Origin: Acidihalobacter prosperus
GTDB lineage: Bacteria > Pseudomonadota > Gammaproteobacteria > DSM-5130 > Acidihalobacteraceae
Length of the DNA stretch: 64,000 nt
Assembly: GCF_000754095.2 (NCBI RefSeq)
Contig: NZ_JQSG02000003.1
Location: 423,397-487,396, forward strand
Direction of reading: 5' to 3'
The position numbers were made by a program, and so were the translations under genes. Position 1 is the stretch's first letter; the number at the start of each line of letters is the position of its first letter. Of this stretch, positions 1 through 8,389 are shown piece after piece. Below the pieces are notes generated by a model that made no database searches, had not been told where the DNA came from, and saw nothing but the letters and a program-made list of their open reading frames with translations.

Positions 1-1755
1 CTGGATGCGATGCAACATGTGGTGGAGGCCCTGCACCAGCGCTTCGACGCACTGCCGCAGGCGCATGGCCTGCACCTGATACTCAGCGGCACGCCGGTCA
101 TCGCGGTGCACTCGCGCGATACCATCAAGGCGGATGCACAGCTGTTCAGCACCGCCGCCAGCGTGGCCCTCGCCCTGTTGCTGTTGCTGGCATACCGTTC
201 CGTGCGCCTGCTCCTGCTCGCCGCCCTGCCGCTGCTCAGCGCCGTCCTTGCCGGCGCGGTGGCCGTCAATCTCGGATTCGGCGAGATCCAGGGCATCACC
301 GTGGCCTTCGGCTCGACCCTGCTCGGCGTGGCCGTCGACTACCCGATGCACCTGTTCAGCCACCTGCAGCGCGAAATGACGGCACGACAGAGCCTGAGGC
401 ACATCTGGCCGACCCTGCGGCTGGGCGTGCTGACTACCGCTGCCGGCTACCTGGGTCTGCTCGGCACCCGTTTCAGCGGACTGATGCAACTCGGCGTGTT
501 CGCGATCGCCGGCCTGCTCGCCGCGGCTGCCGTCACGCGCTGGGTGCTGCCGCAGCTCATACCGGCCGGTTACGCACCGACGATGCGCCTGCGCACGCTG
601 ACGCACCTGTCGGAAACCGCCTGCCGCTGGCCGGCCCGGCACAAATGGGGCGTGGCCTGCTTGCTCGCGATCACCGCGCTCGGCGCCCTGTGGCTGCAGA
701 GAGGGCATCTGTGGGAAGACAATCTGGCCGCGCTCAGCCCGGTGAGTCCTGCCAGCCTCGCCACCGACCGGCGCCTTCGCACCGATCTCAATGCACCCGA
801 CGTCGGTCAACTCGTGGTGATTCAGGCGGCGGATGCCCAGACCGCGCTCAAGCGCAGTCTGGCGCTTGCCGAAGCGCTCAAGACCCCGCTCGCACGCGGC
901 TGGCTGCGCGGCGAGGAAATGGCCGCACGCTACCTGCCGCCCGCCGCGGTGCAGAAACAGCGTCAGGCGGCAATCCCCGCACCCGCCCAACTTGCCGAAC
1001 GGCTGCAAGAGGCGCTCGCCGGCCTGCCGTTCAAGCCCGGCGTGTTCGCCCCCTTCCTGCACGATGCGGCGGCGGCGCGGCACCTCTCCCCGGTGACTCC
1101 GGACGAAGTTCGCGGCACGCTGCTCGGTGCCCGCGTCGACAATCTGCTGTATGCGCAGGGCGGCCACTGGTACGCGCTGATCCCGCTCATCGGCGTCAGC
1201 GCGCCCCAGGCGCTGGCCGGCTGGTTCGCCGCCCACCCGATGCCGGGCGTCACCTATCTCGACACCCACACCGAATCGACGCACCTGATGCGCAGCTTCC
1301 GTGAACAAACCGTGGGTCAGCTCGGCCTGGTGGGCACCGCGATACTGCTGGTGCTGTTCGTGGGACTGCGCGACCCGCGCGAGGTCCTCCGCGTGCTGGC
1401 GCCGCTTGCGCTCGCGGAGCTGATCGACCTCGCCGTGCTGGTTTCGCTGGACGAGCGCCTGACCCTGTTCCATCTGATCGCCTTGCTGATGGTGGCCGGC
1501 ATCAGCATCGATTACGCGTTGTTCTTTGCTCGCCCCGACAGCGCACCGCAAGGTCGGCGACGCACGCTGCACGCCCTCACCCTGTGCGCGGCTTCCACGG
1601 TCGGCGTATTTGCTATCCTAGCCCTTTCGTCACTGCCCGTACTGCGCGCGCTCGGCCTGACCGCGGCGATCGGCGTCGGCGTCGCCTATCCGCTGGCGAT
1701 GCTGCTCGCCCAACGCCCGGGCACTCCCCCGGCAGCCGAACGGGCGCTGTCCTGA
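1..1755 (+). CDS. MMPL/RND-type predicted exporter, C-terminal part (5' end outside window)
   Basis: The frame is open from base 1, so this is the C-terminal part of a larger protein; the ATG at 10 is probably internal. Visible are a cluster of membrane segments in the first 190 residues, a large soluble loop, and a second membrane cluster in the last 150 residues. That is the MMPL/RND layout of two membrane blocks separated by a periplasmic domain. The ketosynthase, dehydratase and glycosyltransferase genes directly downstream in the same direction match aryl-polyene pigment clusters, where such an exporter is thought to move the polyene lipid to the outer membrane. The cluster role is inferred from context. 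The start cannot be judged. Confidence 0.8.
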   Translation: MDAMQHVVEALHQRFDALPQAHGLHLILSGTPVIAVHSRDTIKADAQLFSTAASVALALLLLLAYRSVRLLLLAALPLLSAVLAGAVAVNLGFGEIQGITVAFGSTLLGVAVDYPMHLFSHLQREMTARQSLRHIWPTLRLGVLTTAAGYLGLLGTRFSGLMQLGVFAIAGLLAAAAVTRWVLPQLIPAGYAPTMRLRTLTHLSETACRWPARHKWGVACLLAITALGALWLQRGHLWEDNLAALSPVSPASLATDRRLRTDLNAPDVGQLVVIQAADAQTALKRSLALAEALKTPLARGWLRGEEMAARYLPPAAVQKQRQAAIPAPAQLAERLQEALAGLPFKPGVFAPFLHDAAAARHLSPVTPDEVRGTLLGARVDNLLYAQGGHWYALIPLIGVSAPQALAGWFAAHPMPGVTYLDTHTESTHLMRSFREQTVGQLGLVGTAILLVLFVGLRDPREVLRVLAPLALAELIDLAVLVSLDERLTLFHLIALLMVAGISIDYALFFARPDSAPQGRRRTLHALTLCAASTVGVFAILALSSLPVLRALGLTAAIGVGVAYPLAMLLAQRPGTPPAAERALS

Positions 1756-1774
1756 CACGAATTTCCGGATTGGC

Positions 1775-2965
1775 ATGCGGGCACTCAAGATTGCTTCATA
1801 CACCCTGACCAACGCCCTTGGGCGAGGGCGCGACGCCACGCTGACGGCGCTGCGCGAACAGCGCGGCGGGCTGCGGCCGAACGATTTCGGCACGGACGGC
1901 CCGACAACCTGGATCGGGCGGGTCGACGGCATCGAGTCGCAGGCGCTGGACGGTCCGTTCTCCGTCTATGACTGCCGCAACAACCGCCTGGCCGCGCTGG
2001 CACTCGGCGCCGACGGCTTCGAGGCGGATTGCGCGGCATTGCGCGCGCGCGTCGGCGCCGACCGCATCGGCGTATTCGTCGGTACCAGCACCTCCGGCAT
2101 CGAGCAGACCGAACGCGCCTACCGGGCGCGTCCGGACTCGGATGCGCCATTGCCTGACTGGTACGATTATGCGCACACCCATGATATGTTCTCGCTCGCG
2201 GATTTCGTGCGCACACGCCTGGCGCTGCGCGGCCCGGCGATGACCGTCTCGACCGCCTGCTCGTCCAGCGCCAAGGTTTTCGCCACGGCCTGGCGTCATA
2301 TCGAAACCGGCCTGTGCGACGCCGCGGTGGTCGGAGGCGTCGACAGCCTCTGCCGCATGACGCTGCATGGCTTCGACGCACTGCAACTGGTTTCGTCCGC
2401 ACCCTGCCGCCCGGCCGACGTCGACCGCGACGGCATCAGCATTGGCGAGGCCGCCGCCTTCGCCCTGCTCGAGCCGGCAGGACGGGAGGACAACGGCACA
2501 CCCTGCATACTCGGTTATGGCGAAAGCAACGACGCCTACCATATGTCGTCGCCGGCACCCGACGGACGCGGTGCCGCCGAGGCCATGCGCGCAGCGCTGC
2601 GTCGCGCCGCCTTGCAGGCGGCGGACATCGATTTCGTCCACCTGCACGGTACCGCCACGCCCGCCAACGATGCCGCCGAAGACCGTGCCGTACATGCGAT
2701 CTTCGGCCCGCGCACGCCATGCGCGTCGACCAAGGGCTGGACCGGGCACACCCTGGGTGCGGCGGGCGCGAGCAATGCCCTGATCGCGGCGATGTGCGTC
2801 GAGCAGGGCCTCATGCCCGGCAGCCTCAACACCACATCGGTCGATCCGCAATTGGTCTGCCGCGTTCTGACCGAAGGCAAGGCAACCCCCGTCGCGCGCA
2901 TCATGAGCAACGCCTTCGGCTTCGGCGGCAGCAATGCCTGCCTGATCGTCGGGTACCCGACATGA
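1775..2965 (+). CDS. Beta-ketoacyl-ACP synthase (FabF/KAS II-like), aryl polyene type
   Basis: This 396-residue condensing enzyme would extend an ACP-bound acyl or polyene chain with malonyl-ACP. The Cys-His-His triad is visible: C162 in STACSSS, H291 in HLHGTATPAND and H325 in GWTGHTLGAAG, followed by the C-terminal NAFGFGGSN motif. Length fits a full KAS II-type enzyme. It lies 19 bp after the exporter, and its stop overlaps the next start in an ATGA arrangement, so the genes are probably co-translated. It sits beside a chain-length-factor-like ketosynthase and a hotdog dehydratase, so a role in aryl polyene rather than housekeeping fatty acid synthesis is more likely, though this is inferred from neighbours. 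Confidence 0.87.
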   Translation: MRALKIASYTLTNALGRGRDATLTALREQRGGLRPNDFGTDGPTTWIGRVDGIESQALDGPFSVYDCRNNRLAALALGADGFEADCAALRARVGADRIGVFVGTSTSGIEQTERAYRARPDSDAPLPDWYDYAHTHDMFSLADFVRTRLALRGPAMTVSTACSSSAKVFATAWRHIETGLCDAAVVGGVDSLCRMTLHGFDALQLVSSAPCRPADVDRDGISIGEAAAFALLEPAGREDNGTPCILGYGESNDAYHMSSPAPDGRGAAEAMRAALRRAALQAADIDFVHLHGTATPANDAAEDRAVHAIFGPRTPCASTKGWTGHTLGAAGASNALIAAMCVEQGLMPGSLNTTSVDPQLVCRVLTEGKATPVARIMSNAFGFGGSNACLIVGYPT

Positions 2966-3762
2966 TCGCCTGCCGCGTACTCGGCATCGGTATCGCCGCG
3001 CCCGGCCTGCCCGACTGGCGCACCGCGCAGCCCGTACTCGCGGGCAGGAAACCCTATGTCGCGGCGCAAATGCCACGCCCGAATCCGACCCGCCTGCCTG
3101 CAAACGAGCGCCGTCGTGCCAGCGCGGCCATCCGGCTGGCGCTGGACGTGGCCGACCAGGCCGCCCGGGACGCCGGGATCGAACCGGCCCGCACCGCTTC
3201 CGTTTTCACCTCGTCCAGTGGCGATAGCGACGTGATCCACGGCATCTGCCAGGCACTGTGTGCACCGGCACCCGCACTCTCGCCCACCGCCTTCCACAAC
3301 TCGGTCCACAACGCACCGGCCGGATACTGGTCCATCGCCACCCGCGCCGTGCCTCCCTATACCGCGCTGTCCGCACAGGACGGTAGTTTTGCCGCCGGCT
3401 TGATCGAAGCAGGCACCCAGCTGTCATGCGAGGGCGGGCCTATCCTGTTGGTTGCCTACGAGGTACCGATCCCTCATCCCCTGAACATGCAACGGCCCGC
3501 GCGCGAGCATTTCGCCTGCGCCCTGGTGCTTGACCGGGCCGACGACGGGGCGGCCCGACTCACGTTCGAATACGCCGCCCCGCGCACTGGCAAAGGCGGA
3601 CCCACCGCGCTCGGCGACCCCGGCCTGGAATCCCTGCGCCGCGACAACGCGGCGGCGCACGCGTTGCCGCTCCTCGCGCTGCTGGCCGCCGGGCGACCGG
3701 ACGAGGTCGTGCTGCCCTCGAACGCACACGGCGCGATGCGCGCGCGCTACACGCCGTGTTGA
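2962..3762 (+). CDS. Ketosynthase-like protein, possible chain-length factor
   Basis: A 266-residue protein resembling the shortened ketosynthase family found in aryl polyene clusters (Ketoacyl-synt_2 type). It keeps the FHNSVHNAPAGYWSIAT stretch around residues 111-127. No Cys is visible at the usual nucleophile position, where the sequence reads TALSAQDGSF. It is therefore probably not an independent condensing enzyme and may pair with the upstream ketosynthase. The ATG at 2962 overlaps the upstream stop by 4 bp, and the 3' end overlaps the next gene by 7 bp. The start is firm because of the ATGA overlap. The partner role is inferred. Confidence 0.75.
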   Translation: MIACRVLGIGIAAPGLPDWRTAQPVLAGRKPYVAAQMPRPNPTRLPANERRRASAAIRLALDVADQAARDAGIEPARTASVFTSSSGDSDVIHGICQALCAPAPALSPTAFHNSVHNAPAGYWSIATRAVPPYTALSAQDGSFAAGLIEAGTQLSCEGGPILLVAYEVPIPHPLNMQRPAREHFACALVLDRADDGAARLTFEYAAPRTGKGGPTALGDPGLESLRRDNAAAHALPLLALLAAGRPDEVVLPSNAHGAMRARYTPC

Positions 3763-4193
3763 TCGGGCGCGCCGCCATCGCCGCACTCATTCCTCATGCC
3801 GACGACATGTGTCTGCTCGAGTCCGTATCCGCTTGGGACGATTCCCGTATCGCCTGCCACAGCCGGACACACCTGAATCCCGCCAACCCCTTGCGCCGCG
3901 CAGGCAGACTGGGCTGCGTGCATGGCATCGAATACGCAGCCCAGGCAGCGGCGGTGCACGGCGCATTGCTGGCGCAACGCGCGGGACGCTCACTTGCCGC
4001 CGGGCGACTCGCGGCCGTGCGCGACATCGACTGGATGCCCGGCGGCCTGGACGACGGCAGGGCAAGCCTCGATATCGAGGCCGAGCGGCTGATCGCGACG
4101 GGCGGCAGCTTCATCTACGGCTTCAAGGTGAGCACCAACGGCCATACTCTGATTTGCGGACGACTCAGCGTCATTGCAGGCGCCATCGAATGA
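3756..4193 (+). CDS. Hotdog-fold 3-hydroxyacyl-ACP dehydratase-like protein
   Basis: This 145-residue protein fits the FabA/FabZ-like dehydratases of aryl polyene clusters, which remove water from the 3-hydroxyacyl-ACP intermediate to leave a double bond. A conserved-looking active-site region IPHADDMCLLE lies near residues 12-22, and GIEYAAQAAAVHGALL resembles the central hotdog helix. The annotated start is GTG at 3756, overlapping the previous gene by 7 bp; an in-frame TTG at 3759 is the alternative. The stop overlaps the following ATG. No ketoreductase is seen in this part of the cluster; it may lie upstream of the window or be supplied by FabG. Confidence 0.7.
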   Translation: MLIGRAAIAALIPHADDMCLLESVSAWDDSRIACHSRTHLNPANPLRRAGRLGCVHGIEYAAQAAAVHGALLAQRAGRSLAAGRLAAVRDIDWMPGGLDDGRASLDIEAERLIATGGSFIYGFKVSTNGHTLICGRLSVIAGAIE

Positions 4194-4960
4194 AGGTCTT
4201 CGCCGTTATCCCCGCCTACAACGAAGTCCGAACGTTATCCGAATTGGTGGCCGGGGCACGCGCGCACGTCGATCATGTCGTCGTGGTGGACGACGGCTCC
4301 TCCGACGGTACCGCGGAAAGCCTGCAACCGCTGCCGGATGGCGTCACGCTGCTGCGCAATGCCGGCAATCGCGGCAAGGCGGCCGCGCTCTGGCGTGGCT
4401 TCCGCCACGCGCTGGAGGCGGGCGCCACGCATGTCGTAACCCTGGATGCCGACGGCCAGCACCGCCCCGAGGACATACCCCGCCTGCTGGCGGCGCTGAA
4501 ACCGGACGACGACGCGCTGATCCTCGGCGAGCGGCGCGACAAGCGGGCCACCGCGCCGAGAATGCGGCGCTTCGCCAATGCCTTCGCCGATTTCTGGATA
4601 TCGCTCGCGGCCGGCCAGCGCCTGCGCGACAGTCAGTCGGGCTTTCGCGTCTACCCGGTCGGGCTGCTGTCGACCCTGCATTTCGTCGAGCGGCGCCGCA
4701 AGAGCTTCGTTTTCGAGACCGAACTGCTGGTGGCCGCCGTCTATGGCGGTTTTGCCATTCGCTATGTCGATATCGCCAGCCTGTACCTGCACGATGCCCG
4801 GGCAAGCCACTACCGCGCGGTCTACGACACCACTCAGATCGTCATCGTGGTCGCGGGCATGCTGCTCGATCCGCGTCTCGCGCTGCCGCGCTTGAGGCAC
4901 CTGATACGCGGCCTCGTCCGCGCGCGTCAGCGCGCATCCGCCGCGCCCACGCGCGAGTAG
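4190..4960 (+). CDS. Family 2 glycosyltransferase
   Basis: A 256-residue GT-A-fold transferase. The N-terminus IPAYNE, then VVVDDGSSDGT and LDADGQH (the DXD-type metal and nucleotide-sugar site), are the classic family 2 motifs, followed by an acceptor-side FRVYPVG segment. There is no clear multi-pass membrane domain. The ATG overlaps the upstream stop (ATGA), placing it in the aryl polyene operon. Such glycosyltransferases are common in these clusters and may modify the lipid head group. The sugar and acceptor cannot be told from sequence. It is the last gene of the operon; the next gene is convergent 8 bp away. Confidence 0.83.
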   Translation: MKVFAVIPAYNEVRTLSELVAGARAHVDHVVVVDDGSSDGTAESLQPLPDGVTLLRNAGNRGKAAALWRGFRHALEAGATHVVTLDADGQHRPEDIPRLLAALKPDDDALILGERRDKRATAPRMRRFANAFADFWISLAAGQRLRDSQSGFRVYPVGLLSTLHFVERRRKSFVFETELLVAAVYGGFAIRYVDIASLYLHDARASHYRAVYDTTQIVIVVAGMLLDPRLALPRLRHLIRGLVRARQRASAAPTRE

Positions 4961-4968
4961 GCACGCGT

Positions 4969-5415
4969 CTAGGGCCAGGCGATCACCCACCCCTCCGACT
5001 GTCGCCGCTGCAGCTCGACCACCGAATCGCCGACGATGCCGACACCCGCAGCCGCCCGCGCGACAGGGATGTGCGCGGCCGCGAGATTGCGCCGGCACAG
5101 CACGAACTGTACGCCGTACTGCGCGAGACTCTGGATATCCTGCGCATAAGGCGTTCCCTTGAGCAGCAGCTTCATCCCTGGACCGATGGCCATCAGTTCG
5201 AGTTCGGAATGGTCGATGCCCTGATAGCGGATGGTGTGGCGCAGGAGATTCATCGCCACCATCCAGTCCTCGGGCGAGGAGCGGTCGACCATCACCAGCA
5301 TGTGTACGGTGACGGGTTCGGTCTGCGTCGCGGCGGCCGCCACTGTCGCCGACACCGAACCGCCCACGACGAACAGCAGGAGCACGCCCTGCAACAATCG
5401 GATCGATGTCTTCAT
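4969..5415 (-). CDS. Periplasmic DsrE-family protein
   Basis: A 148-residue protein with a cleavable signal peptide (basic start MKTSIR, hydrophobic core, probable cleavage near residues 23-30). The mature part has the DsrE/DsrF-like alpha/beta pattern, starting VHMLVMVDRSSPEDW and including a single Cys in VQFVLCRRNL, where sulfur-carrier members carry a reactive Cys. DsrE-like proteins act in persulfide relay; exported members are less well characterised. It is convergent with the glycosyltransferase and divergent from the Cyc2-like gene, so it appears to be its own transcription unit. A sulfur-trafficking role is plausible but not shown. Confidence 0.72.
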   Translation of the reverse strand: MKTSIRLLQGVLLLFVVGGSVSATVAAAATQTEPVTVHMLVMVDRSSPEDWMVAMNLLRHTIRYQGIDHSELELMAIGPGMKLLLKGTPYAQDIQSLAQYGVQFVLCRRNLAAAHIPVARAAAGVGIVGDSVVELQRRQSEGWVIAWP

Positions 5416-5725
5416 GGCGCCCCCTGATGTCTGCGGATCACGGCACCATTATCCGCACCCCCCGCGGTCGGCGACTTGATCGGGATCACGCGAAACCGGC
5501 ACCGACGCACGCAACAACGTCCATTTGATGCAGGTCATGCGGACGGCTCGATGTGGTTTACGCGCCGCAACCATCAGCATATTGGTATATAGCGATGCAT
5601 CGGCCGGACAGCGACACGGATAGCGCCCTCCCGGCAATCGAATCTGGCGCCCGCCCGCGACGGCGGGCGGCGGAATTACGAGCCTTTCACAGGGGTCCAG
5701 GCATTCACGCTAGGGAGGTTTCACC
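5416..5725. other. Divergent intergenic region, 310 bp
   Basis: It separates the DsrE-like gene (minus strand) from the Cyc2-like gene (plus strand) and must hold both promoters. An AT-rich patch near 5570-5600 (CATATTGGTATATAG) is the most promoter-like stretch. A clear GGGAGG ribosome binding site at 5713-5718 precedes the ATG at 5726. No further gene or RNA is supported. Confidence 0.4.
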
Positions 5726-7036
5726 ATGTCCATATCGCCACATCGCTCGCTTCGGCTGTCGGCCGGGGCGCTTGGCCTGATGCTGCCGCTCGCGTCGGCC
5801 CACGCGGTACCTTCGTTCGCACGGCAGCTCGGCGTGTCCTGCGCCGCCTGCCATACTGCGTACCCGCAGCTCACGCCCTTCGGCCGCCAGTTCAAGCTGC
5901 TCGGCTATACCATGCAGAACGAGCCGAAGGTGGAAGCCGACAACGGCAAGCGTCTCGACATCGATCGCTGGGCACCGTTGTCGCTGATGGTGATGGTCAG
6001 CGACTCGCTGCCGCAGCACCCGGGATCCGGCGTGGATGCCAGCCAGGTCGAATTCCCCAACCAGCTGAGCCTGTTCTATGCCGGCGCCATCACCCAACAT
6101 GTCGGCACCTTCCTGCAATACACCGCGGGCGACGGCGGCGCCTTCAGCCTCGACAACACCGATGTGCGCTATGCCAATCAGACCAGTCTGGGCAACACCT
6201 CGGTGATCTACGGCATCGACCTCAACAACAATCCCACCGTGCAGGACGTGTGGAACAGCACGCCGGCGTGGCAGTTCCCGTATTTCACGCCGGGCGATAC
6301 GTTTACCACCGCCGGCGGCGCCTCCGTGCCGACCACCCTGATCGAAGGCGCGCTGGCTCAATCGGTCGCCGGGCTGACCGCCTACGGCTATTTCGACAAC
6401 GCCTACTACGCCGAAGCCGGCGTCTATCACGGCATGAACAATCCCTCGACCGCCAGTCCGGCCAACGGCGGTCAAGTCATCAAGGGGATGGCGCCCTACT
6501 GGCGGTTCGCGTACACCGGCCAGGCCGGCAACAACAACTGGGAAATCGGCACCCTGGGGCTGGTCGCGCAAGTACCGGTGAACGGACCCGGCGGCCCGAA
6601 CGACGACTTCACCGATATCGGTTTCGACGGGCAGTATCAGTGGCTCGCGGGCAAGAATACCGTGACCGTCCACGGCGCCTACTACCACGAAAGGCAGGAT
6701 CTCGGAGGCAGCAACGCGCTCGACGGCACCACCTACGGCAACCAGCACCTCGACACCTACAACGTCAGCGCCACCTATTACTACCGGCGCATGTACGGCG
6801 CCACGCTGGCCTATCTCGGCGCAGCCTCGTCGGCCGATGCGGTGGACCAGGGTGCGCTGGGCGGCTATGCGCCGGGCAGCAAGGGCGCGTCGGCCTATAT
6901 CGCCCAACTCGACTACGTGCCCTGGTACAACACGCAGCTCAGCCTGCAGTACATGGATTACGCCAAGGTCGGCGGCAGCACGCGGGACGCGTCCTACAAC
7001 AACTACCTCATGCTCGGCATGTGGTACGCCTACTGA
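5726..7036 (+). CDS. Cyc2-like fused monoheme cytochrome-outer membrane porin
   Basis: A 436-residue exported protein. A signal peptide runs to about residue 27 (ASAHA/VPS). A single heme c motif C39-A-A-C42-H43 follows at once, set in FARQLGVSC and then PQLTPFGRQFKLLGY. That N-terminal pattern is the hallmark of the Cyc2 family of fused cytochrome-porins known from iron-oxidising bacteria. The remaining roughly 370 residues are rich in Tyr, Asn and Gly with alternating aromatic strands and end MLGMWYAY, as in an outer membrane beta-barrel. Only one CxxCH is present. In characterised members the heme sits in the barrel and takes electrons from Fe(II). Whether this protein oxidises iron is inferred; distant family members are uncharacterised. 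Strong ribosome binding site, single-gene unit. Confidence 0.78.
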   Translation: MSISPHRSLRLSAGALGLMLPLASAHAVPSFARQLGVSCAACHTAYPQLTPFGRQFKLLGYTMQNEPKVEADNGKRLDIDRWAPLSLMVMVSDSLPQHPGSGVDASQVEFPNQLSLFYAGAITQHVGTFLQYTAGDGGAFSLDNTDVRYANQTSLGNTSVIYGIDLNNNPTVQDVWNSTPAWQFPYFTPGDTFTTAGGASVPTTLIEGALAQSVAGLTAYGYFDNAYYAEAGVYHGMNNPSTASPANGGQVIKGMAPYWRFAYTGQAGNNNWEIGTLGLVAQVPVNGPGGPNDDFTDIGFDGQYQWLAGKNTVTVHGAYYHERQDLGGSNALDGTTYGNQHLDTYNVSATYYYRRMYGATLAYLGAASSADAVDQGALGGYAPGSKGASAYIAQLDYVPWYNTQLSLQYMDYAKVGGSTRDASYNNYLMLGMWYAY

Positions 7037-7050
7037 GTCGGCAGTGACCA

Positions 7051-7066
7051 CCGGCCGCGCGGCCGG
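7051..7066. terminator. GC-rich perfect palindrome between convergent genes
   Basis: A perfect 16-bp palindrome, CCGGCCGCGCGGCCGG, lies between the ends of the Cyc2-like gene and the HD-GYP gene. It could end transcription from both sides, but no T-run follows on either strand, so intrinsic termination is uncertain. Confidence 0.3.
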
Positions 7067-7093: not shown

Positions 7094-8389
7094 TCATGAC
7101 GACAGGGCCGAGGGGTCGAAATCCTCCGCCACCAGCGCCTTGACGTCGATACCGTGATCCGCGGGATCGAGTACCTGCGCGACACCCCAGCGCCGCCAGT
7201 TGGCCTCGGAATCGGCCAGGTCGGACAGATTCACCAGGCGCTGGCCCGGGTAGGGTTTGCCGTCGGCATCCCTGATCAGACGGATCAGCGGTTTGAGACG
7301 CCGCATCGGGTCCGCCGACAGCACCACGCCCAGATCGCCGGTGGTCAGCTTGACCAGGCTGCCGATCGGGTAGATGCCGATGCAACGGATGAACTCCTCC
7401 ACCAGTTCGCGCGGAAAATCCTTGGGCGCAATCTGATACAGCAGACGCAATCCTTTGTGCGCAGGCATGCCGGTATGGTAGCAGCGGTCGCTGGTCACCG
7501 CGTCGTACACGTCGACCAGCGAGGTGATCTGTACCGGCAGGGGAATCTGATCGCCCGACCAGCCGTCGGGGTAGCCGTTGCCGGCCAGGCGTTCGTGGTG
7601 ATGGCGGATGATCTGCAAAGCCATGGCCGGCAGACGGTCGTCGGAATTGCGGATGAGTTCGAAGCCTTCGACCGGATGGCGACGCATGATGTCGAACTCG
7701 GCCGGCGATAGCCGGCCCGGCTTGTTCAAGACCTCGGGCGGCGTCTTGATCTTGCCGATGTCATGCAGCAGCGCGCCGAGCCCCAGCACCTTGAGATCGT
7801 CCTCGCTCAGGCCCAGATGCCGCCCGAACGCGACCGCAAGAATGCACACGTTCATGCTGTGGATCGAGGTGTATTCGTCCTTGTACTTGAGGTTGGTCAG
7901 CCACAACGAGGCGTTGACGTTGACGGTGATGGACTCGATCAGGTCGCTGACCACCGCGCGCGCCTCGTCGGTATCCACGCTGGCGCCGAGACGCACGTCC
8001 TCGAAGGCCCGCTTGAGGCACTGGTGCGCGCGCGAACGCACGCGCGCGGCGCGCCCCAGTTCGCGGCGAAAGGCCTGTGGATCGGCCTGCCCCCTCAGAT
8101 CCGGTGGCGCTCCCCGGCGCACCTGCGCTTCATGCGCTTCGGTCGCGACCGCGGCGGGCGCGGGCTTCTCCTCCATCAACATCGGAACGGGTACGGTCGA
8201 GCGCGCAGGATCAACGAACACGTGCCCGCAGTATTCCCGAAGCTGGTCCAGCTCCTCGTCGCTCTCGATCAGGAAACCCTGCAATAGAAAGGGCGTGCCC
8301 CGCCATTCGCGGTCGAGATCGGCCACGAACATGCCGATTCGCAGCGATTCGACATCAACCTTCGCATGCAGCTCGTTGTTGAGATTCAT
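7094..8389 (-). CDS. HD-GYP domain cyclic-di-GMP phosphodiesterase (DUF3391 + HD-GYP)
   Basis: A 431-residue cytoplasmic protein. Residues 1-75 match the DUF3391 N-terminal domain. An HD-GYP domain occupies roughly residues 150-370: the HD pair is H209-D210 in ALLHDIGKIKTP, and the GYP signature is in HHHERLAGNGYPDG (263-276). Both metal-binding signatures are intact, so c-di-GMP hydrolysis is expected. The ATG at 8389 is preferred over an in-frame GTG at 8407 because homology begins there. It is a single-gene unit, convergent with the Cyc2-like gene. With the GGDEF (14090) and EAL (22882) proteins it gives this window three c-di-GMP enzymes. Confidence 0.88.
   Translation of the reverse strand: MNLNNELHAKVDVESLRIGMFVADLDREWRGTPFLLQGFLIESDEELDQLREYCGHVFVDPARSTVPVPMLMEEKPAPAAVATEAHEAQVRRGAPPDLRGQADPQAFRRELGRAARVRSRAHQCLKRAFEDVRLGASVDTDEARAVVSDLIESITVNVNASLWLTNLKYKDEYTSIHSMNVCILAVAFGRHLGLSEDDLKVLGLGALLHDIGKIKTPPEVLNKPGRLSPAEFDIMRRHPVEGFELIRNSDDRLPAMALQIIRHHHERLAGNGYPDGWSGDQIPLPVQITSLVDVYDAVTSDRCYHTGMPAHKGLRLLYQIAPKDFPRELVEEFIRCIGIYPIGSLVKLTTGDLGVVLSADPMRRLKPLIRLIRDADGKPYPGQRLVNLSDLADSEANWRRWGVAQVLDPADHGIDVKALVAEDFDPSALSS

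Follow-up and report, generated by a model that had tools for sequence, protein, structure and literature searches.

Copy A, the cyc2-like gene at positions 5726-7036 (+) of the window (the whole 64,000-nucleotide stretch of Acidihalobacter prosperus DNA analysed here), is a second, stand-alone cyc2 gene, and its promoter region carries FNR/ANR-type palindromes at positions conserved in three species, a feature reported here for the first time. We favour a reading in which copy A is under low-oxygen, FNR/ANR-type control and most likely serves as a ferric-iron reductase, the role that has been proposed for Cyc2B of A. ferrooxidans; as a whole, we consider this reading about evenly balanced between right and wrong.

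The open reading frame runs from ATG to TGA, encodes a fused monoheme cytochrome c-porin of 436 aa, as judged by homology, motif and model, and is preceded by a ribosome-binding site, AGGGAGG (5712-5718, +). By inspection, a signal peptide occupies residues 1-27 and ends in A-H-A (...SAHA; 5726-5806, +). The predicted cytochrome plug follows (residues 28-84; 5807-5977, +), containing the only CxxCH of the protein, CAACH at residues 39-43 (5840-5854, +), with PQL at residues 47-49. The motif, at which a heme would be attached, lies in the context FARQLGVSCAACH and PQLTPFGRQFKLLGY, reading FARQLGVSC...PQLTPFGRQFKLLGY. There are two Cys in the whole protein and the C-terminal residue is Tyr. All of this agrees with the preliminary description, which had reported a single CxxCH after a signal peptide, the FARQLGVSC context and the terminal Tyr. 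A long opposite-strand reading frame (5705-7051) was taken for a frame shadow, given that the homologues found correspond to the plus-strand product. Scans of the window with Rfam and for tRNA genes found none, and the one terminator-like site, at chance level, lies inside the copy A frame.

No Pfam or NCBIfam model covers the protein, a result in line with the poor conservation of the Cyc2 barrel (PMC8406198, in part), and phmmer found no match among PDB sequences. The published signs of Cyc2 are a single CXXCH, the motif AXPXFAR[Q/K][T/Y], PXL, a minimum length of 365 residues and a porin of 16 strands (PMC8406198, in part). Copy A has the single CXXCH behind its signal peptide, PXL four residues past it (CAACHTAYPQL) and a sufficient length. 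Its AVPSFARQL fits the longer motif, a published consensus and no absolute rule, except at the final position, where Leu replaces T/Y. That position is T in 78 of 80 homologues and Leu only in the two Acidihalobacter copies. Residues invariant in the surrounding family are all kept, including the acids D143, D146, D174, D297 and D301. Full-length homologues at 33-45% identity occur in many bacteria (proteobacteria, Acidobacteriota and others); together with sister-species orthologues showing dN/dS near 0.1, they indicate that the reading frame is not a chance one.

Modelling supports the barrel-like region proposed earlier and, together with motif and homology, the Cyc2 architecture. An AlphaFold2 model (mb531c603decd, 65 sequences; mean pLDDT 79, pTM 0.82) has exactly 16 strands within residues 85-435 (5978-7033, +), while the plug, residues 31-84, was modelled with mixed confidence. 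VIA-align matched the model to the two templates named for Cyc2PV-1 (PMC8406198, in part), with Z 22.1 for OprO and 21.9 for OprP (rmsd 3.5 over 305 and 3.4 over 295, respectively). Foldseek TM-scores normalised by the model were moderate (0.47-0.49 for OprP/OprO). Since numerous other porins score just as high, the match identifies a porin fold, not a function. The characterised proteins, A. ferrooxidans Cyc2, Mariprofundus Cyc2PV-1 and Leptospirillum Cyt572, share with copy A the signal peptide, single CxxCH, PXL and a 16-strand, OprP/OprO-like barrel, and differ in having T/Y where copy A has Leu after FAR[Q/K] (PMC8406198, in part). On homology, motif and predicted fold we assign copy A to the Cyc2 cytochrome-porin family, with this one motif deviation.

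The window genome (G000, 3,359,675 bp) encodes another Cyc2, copy B (G000:C3:243462-244847), 42% identical to copy A over 403 residues. Copy B heads a rusticyanin operon, cyc2-cup-coxBACD-ctaAB-rus, on the same contig about 185 kb from copy A, which lies outside it. Copy A, then, is a stand-alone paralogue, and its lineage was already known for iron oxidation. The suggestion that copy A would be the key clue to the lifestyle of the organism is not supported, since elsewhere the genome has a full rusticyanin operon that includes a Cyc2. The two proteins share the conserved residues and the cytochrome motif, down to FARQL, which was seen in no other homologue; copy B differs in lying inside an operon, lacking an FNR-type box and evolving faster. 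In all three genomes of the genus (L097, L100, L101) cup directly follows cyc2 in this operon, leaving no room for cyc1, whereas one paper lists cyc1 after cyc2 for Acidihalobacter. A singleton second rusticyanin gene lies at C1:738631 of the window genome, in keeping with the Form I and Form II rusticyanins described for A. prosperus (PMC5216662, in part). In one sister species the Form II singleton is split (7120-7386 and 9826-10299 of L163, G002:C1:1963000-1982900) by an insertion with IS-type genes; this genome keeps cyc2 copy A intact.

Both cyc2 copies are kept in three of three genomes of the genus (G000 and the sister species G001 and G002), and neither was found in two genomes of the sister genus. 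The neighbourhood of copy A is the same in the three species: glycosyltransferase and ketosynthase-type genes, dsrE (-), cyc2 (+), HD-GYP (-) and liv-type ABC genes. The MMPL-type exporter, ketosynthase, dehydratase-like and glycosyltransferase genes clustered at 10-4960 of the window resemble by eye those of aryl polyene synthesis. Between species copy A is 84-88% identical with a dN/dS of 0.08-0.11, and is therefore under strong purifying selection, stronger in all three species than that on the rus-operon copy (71-80% identical, dN/dS 0.12-0.18). The existence of two copies and the isolated position of this one might point to a duplicate that is redundant or in decay and has no role of its own. 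This is very improbable: the gene is intact and syntenic in three species, and with a dN/dS of about 0.1 it is more conserved than its rus-operon counterpart. In a tree of the homologues found here, neither a single clade of copies A and B (AU p 0.62) nor a grouping of copy A with Acidiferrobacteraceae-like copies (AU p 0.53) was rejected; FARQL, common to copies A and B alone, favours duplication within the lineage.

When the region between dsrE and cyc2 was aligned across the three species, it revealed two FNR/ANR-type boxes, defined by the palindrome TTGAY-N4-RTCAA. Box 1, TTGATCGGGATCAC (5476-5489, +), has one mismatch and is conserved in both sister species. Box 2, TTGATGCAGGTCAT (5525-5538, +), also has one mismatch and is exact at the same place in the sister species (TTGACGCAGATCAA and TTGACGCAGGTCAA). 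The boxes are spaced 49-50 bp apart in each species. Downstream, a conserved T/A-rich patch contains a possible -10 element, TATATA (5586-5591, +), suggested by the alignment; a sigma-70 consensus scan found no site. The number of FNR-type sites within the window alone is not unusual, so the weight falls on position, conservation and a family-wide test. Exact boxes are rare in the three genus genomes (16, 25 and 18, vs 2-4 for the reversed pattern).

Copy A thus has upstream a TTGAY-N4-RTCAA-type site conserved between species, as is characteristic of an FNR/ANR regulon, and the window genome encodes a candidate FNR with the cluster motif CxxC-x5-C, which may bind there. Counting against this, neither box is exact in the window genome, exact matches being confined to the sister species. 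Several CRP-family proteins are encoded in the same genome, and DNR or others of this family could bind the same boxes. The boxes may also serve the divergent dsrE-like gene (4969-5415, -), which shares the intergenic region; its product has a signal peptide and matches Pfam DsrE with an E-value of 1.7e-4, just below the cut-off.

Across the family, the 300 bp upstream of cyc2-like genes were examined in 56 non-redundant regions, a set thinned, though not completely corrected, for relatedness. An exact box occurred in 10 of the 56; dinucleotide shuffles averaged 0.03, and the reversed pattern occurred in none. With one mismatch allowed, the figures were 18 regions vs 1.6 shuffled and 2 reversed. 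For comparison, 10 of 888 further genes from these loci carried such an exact site (1.1%; Fisher p 3e-8); several of these ten share the cyc2 intergenic region. The boxes also separate two classes of cyc2. In Acidihalobacter and the G370/G382 family, a box lay within 600 bp of 11 of 12 stand-alone copies and of no rus-operon copy (0 of 7); this contrast (Fisher p 1.6e-4) is uncorrected for relatedness and draws on two families and few independent events. The G370/G382 family is probably Acidiferrobacter-like, to judge from its rus operon with cyc1. In two loci of these Acidiferrobacter-like genomes (L153, L156), the second cyc2 has an FNR-type box, is followed by a diheme cyc1 copy and lies beside a hydrogenase-4-like cluster. 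In G382 this cyc1 copy is 100% identical to the rus-operon cyc1.

In several lineages elsewhere in the family, hemN and fnr recur among the neighbours of cyc2. The hemN gene, for oxygen-independent heme synthesis, is a classical FNR/ANR target. Seven loci have it less than 1 kb from cyc2 (L105 of G044, L018, L019, L025, L026, L028 and L050), and FNR-type regulators with CxxC-x5-C are encoded near cyc2 in L105, L018, L019, L025, L050, L150 and L151. A search of titles, abstracts and term counts in the openly licensed literature found no report linking cyc2 with FNR or hemN in this way.

A possible electron donor is indicated by an exact box that precedes petA-cycA-petB-petC by 257 bp in the window genome and is conserved in both sister species. 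This operon encodes a Rieske protein, a diheme cytochrome c, cytochrome b and cytochrome c1. In neither of the two genomes checked did the second petABC operon, which lacks cycA, have a box. No box was found upstream of the cbb3 oxidase operon either. In A. ferrooxidans, Cyc2B/Cyc1B and petII are raised during anaerobic Fe(III) reduction (PMC7735108 and PMC8790237, both in part). Compared by description, Cyc2B resembles copy A in being a second Cyc2 outside the rus operon, with a link to low oxygen and to a pet operon that encodes a diheme cytochrome; it differs in its pairing with Cyc1B, there being no cyc1 beside copy A (PMC7735108, in part). On the favoured reading, copy A would form an outer-membrane porin of 16 strands, and its N-terminal plug, a monoheme c-type cytochrome, would move electrons between periplasm and extracellular iron. 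Unlike the rus-operon Cyc2, it would be controlled by an oxygen-responsive FNR/ANR-type regulator and so be used at low oxygen. By analogy with A. ferrooxidans, electrons may then pass from quinol through the bc1 complex and the diheme CycA of the boxed operon to copy A and on to extracellular Fe(III), a route that would make copy A most likely a ferric-iron reductase. Such reduction may take place in addition to, or in place of, the uptake of electrons from Fe(II). We found no mention of anaerobic growth of Acidihalobacter on Fe(III) in titles and abstracts of the openly licensed literature.

The main rival is Fe(II) oxidation under micro-oxic conditions, which would fit the same regulation. 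Copy A would then be an ordinary Fe(II) oxidase isoform feeding the rus chain at low oxygen or at another level of Fe(II), pH or chloride. Fe(II) oxidation is the function established for the three characterised Cyc2 proteins (PMC8406198, in part), the organism has the whole rus pathway, and Sideroxydans has multiple cyc2 copies that differ in expression (PMC12442390, in part). Two observations weigh against this isoform and render it rather unlikely, if a serious contender: copy A lies outside the rus operon with no adjoining cytochrome or oxidase gene, and the box marks a bc1 operon, not the cbb3 or rus oxidase operons. The earlier proposal of iron as substrate remains plausible. As to direction, the regulatory evidence suggests use at low oxygen, which puts Fe(III) reduction on at least an equal footing with Fe(II) oxidation.

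It is improbable that the partner is something other than iron, such as a sulfur species, another metal or a mineral. The DsrE-like periplasmic protein encoded divergently, and conserved in three species, might hint at sulfur, and numerous Cyc2 homologues come from organisms with no known iron oxidation (PMC8406198, in part). Against this, the family-invariant residues, the five acids among them, are all kept in copy A, and dsrE was found near cyc2 in this genus only, for which reason a general dsrE-cyc2 link was rejected.

To return to ferric-iron reduction, a broader form of the proposal, which we put forward tentatively as somewhat short of an even prospect, is that a large, widespread non-rus part of the Cyc2 family falls under the FNR/ANR regulon of low oxygen and acts chiefly in anaerobic ferric-iron reduction, with copy A as its Acidihalobacter representative. 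At present cyc2 serves as a genomic marker of iron oxidation. If non-rus Cyc2 proteins are chiefly ferric reductases, the presence of cyc2 in a genome would not by itself mark an iron oxidiser, and if stand-alone copies under an oxygen sensor have a low-oxygen role, many 'iron oxidiser' predictions based on cyc2 would need rethinking. The roles of multiple cyc2 copies could then be tested with one simple criterion, a rus operon lacking a box vs a stand-alone gene that has one. Low-oxygen or Fe(III)-respiring capacity would also be predicted for Acidihalobacter, which is used in saline biomining.

Exact boxes were also observed elsewhere in the window genome. In L202 (G000:C6:1026000-1041000) a CRP/FNR-family regulator gene (4454-5311) lies between two exact boxes, and a similar pair stands beside a related gene in G001, suggesting autoregulation. 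In L204 (G000:C6:214000-219500) an exact box, TTGACCCGCGTCAA (2733-2746), lies between a LysR-type regulator gene and the gene for the RuBisCO large subunit.
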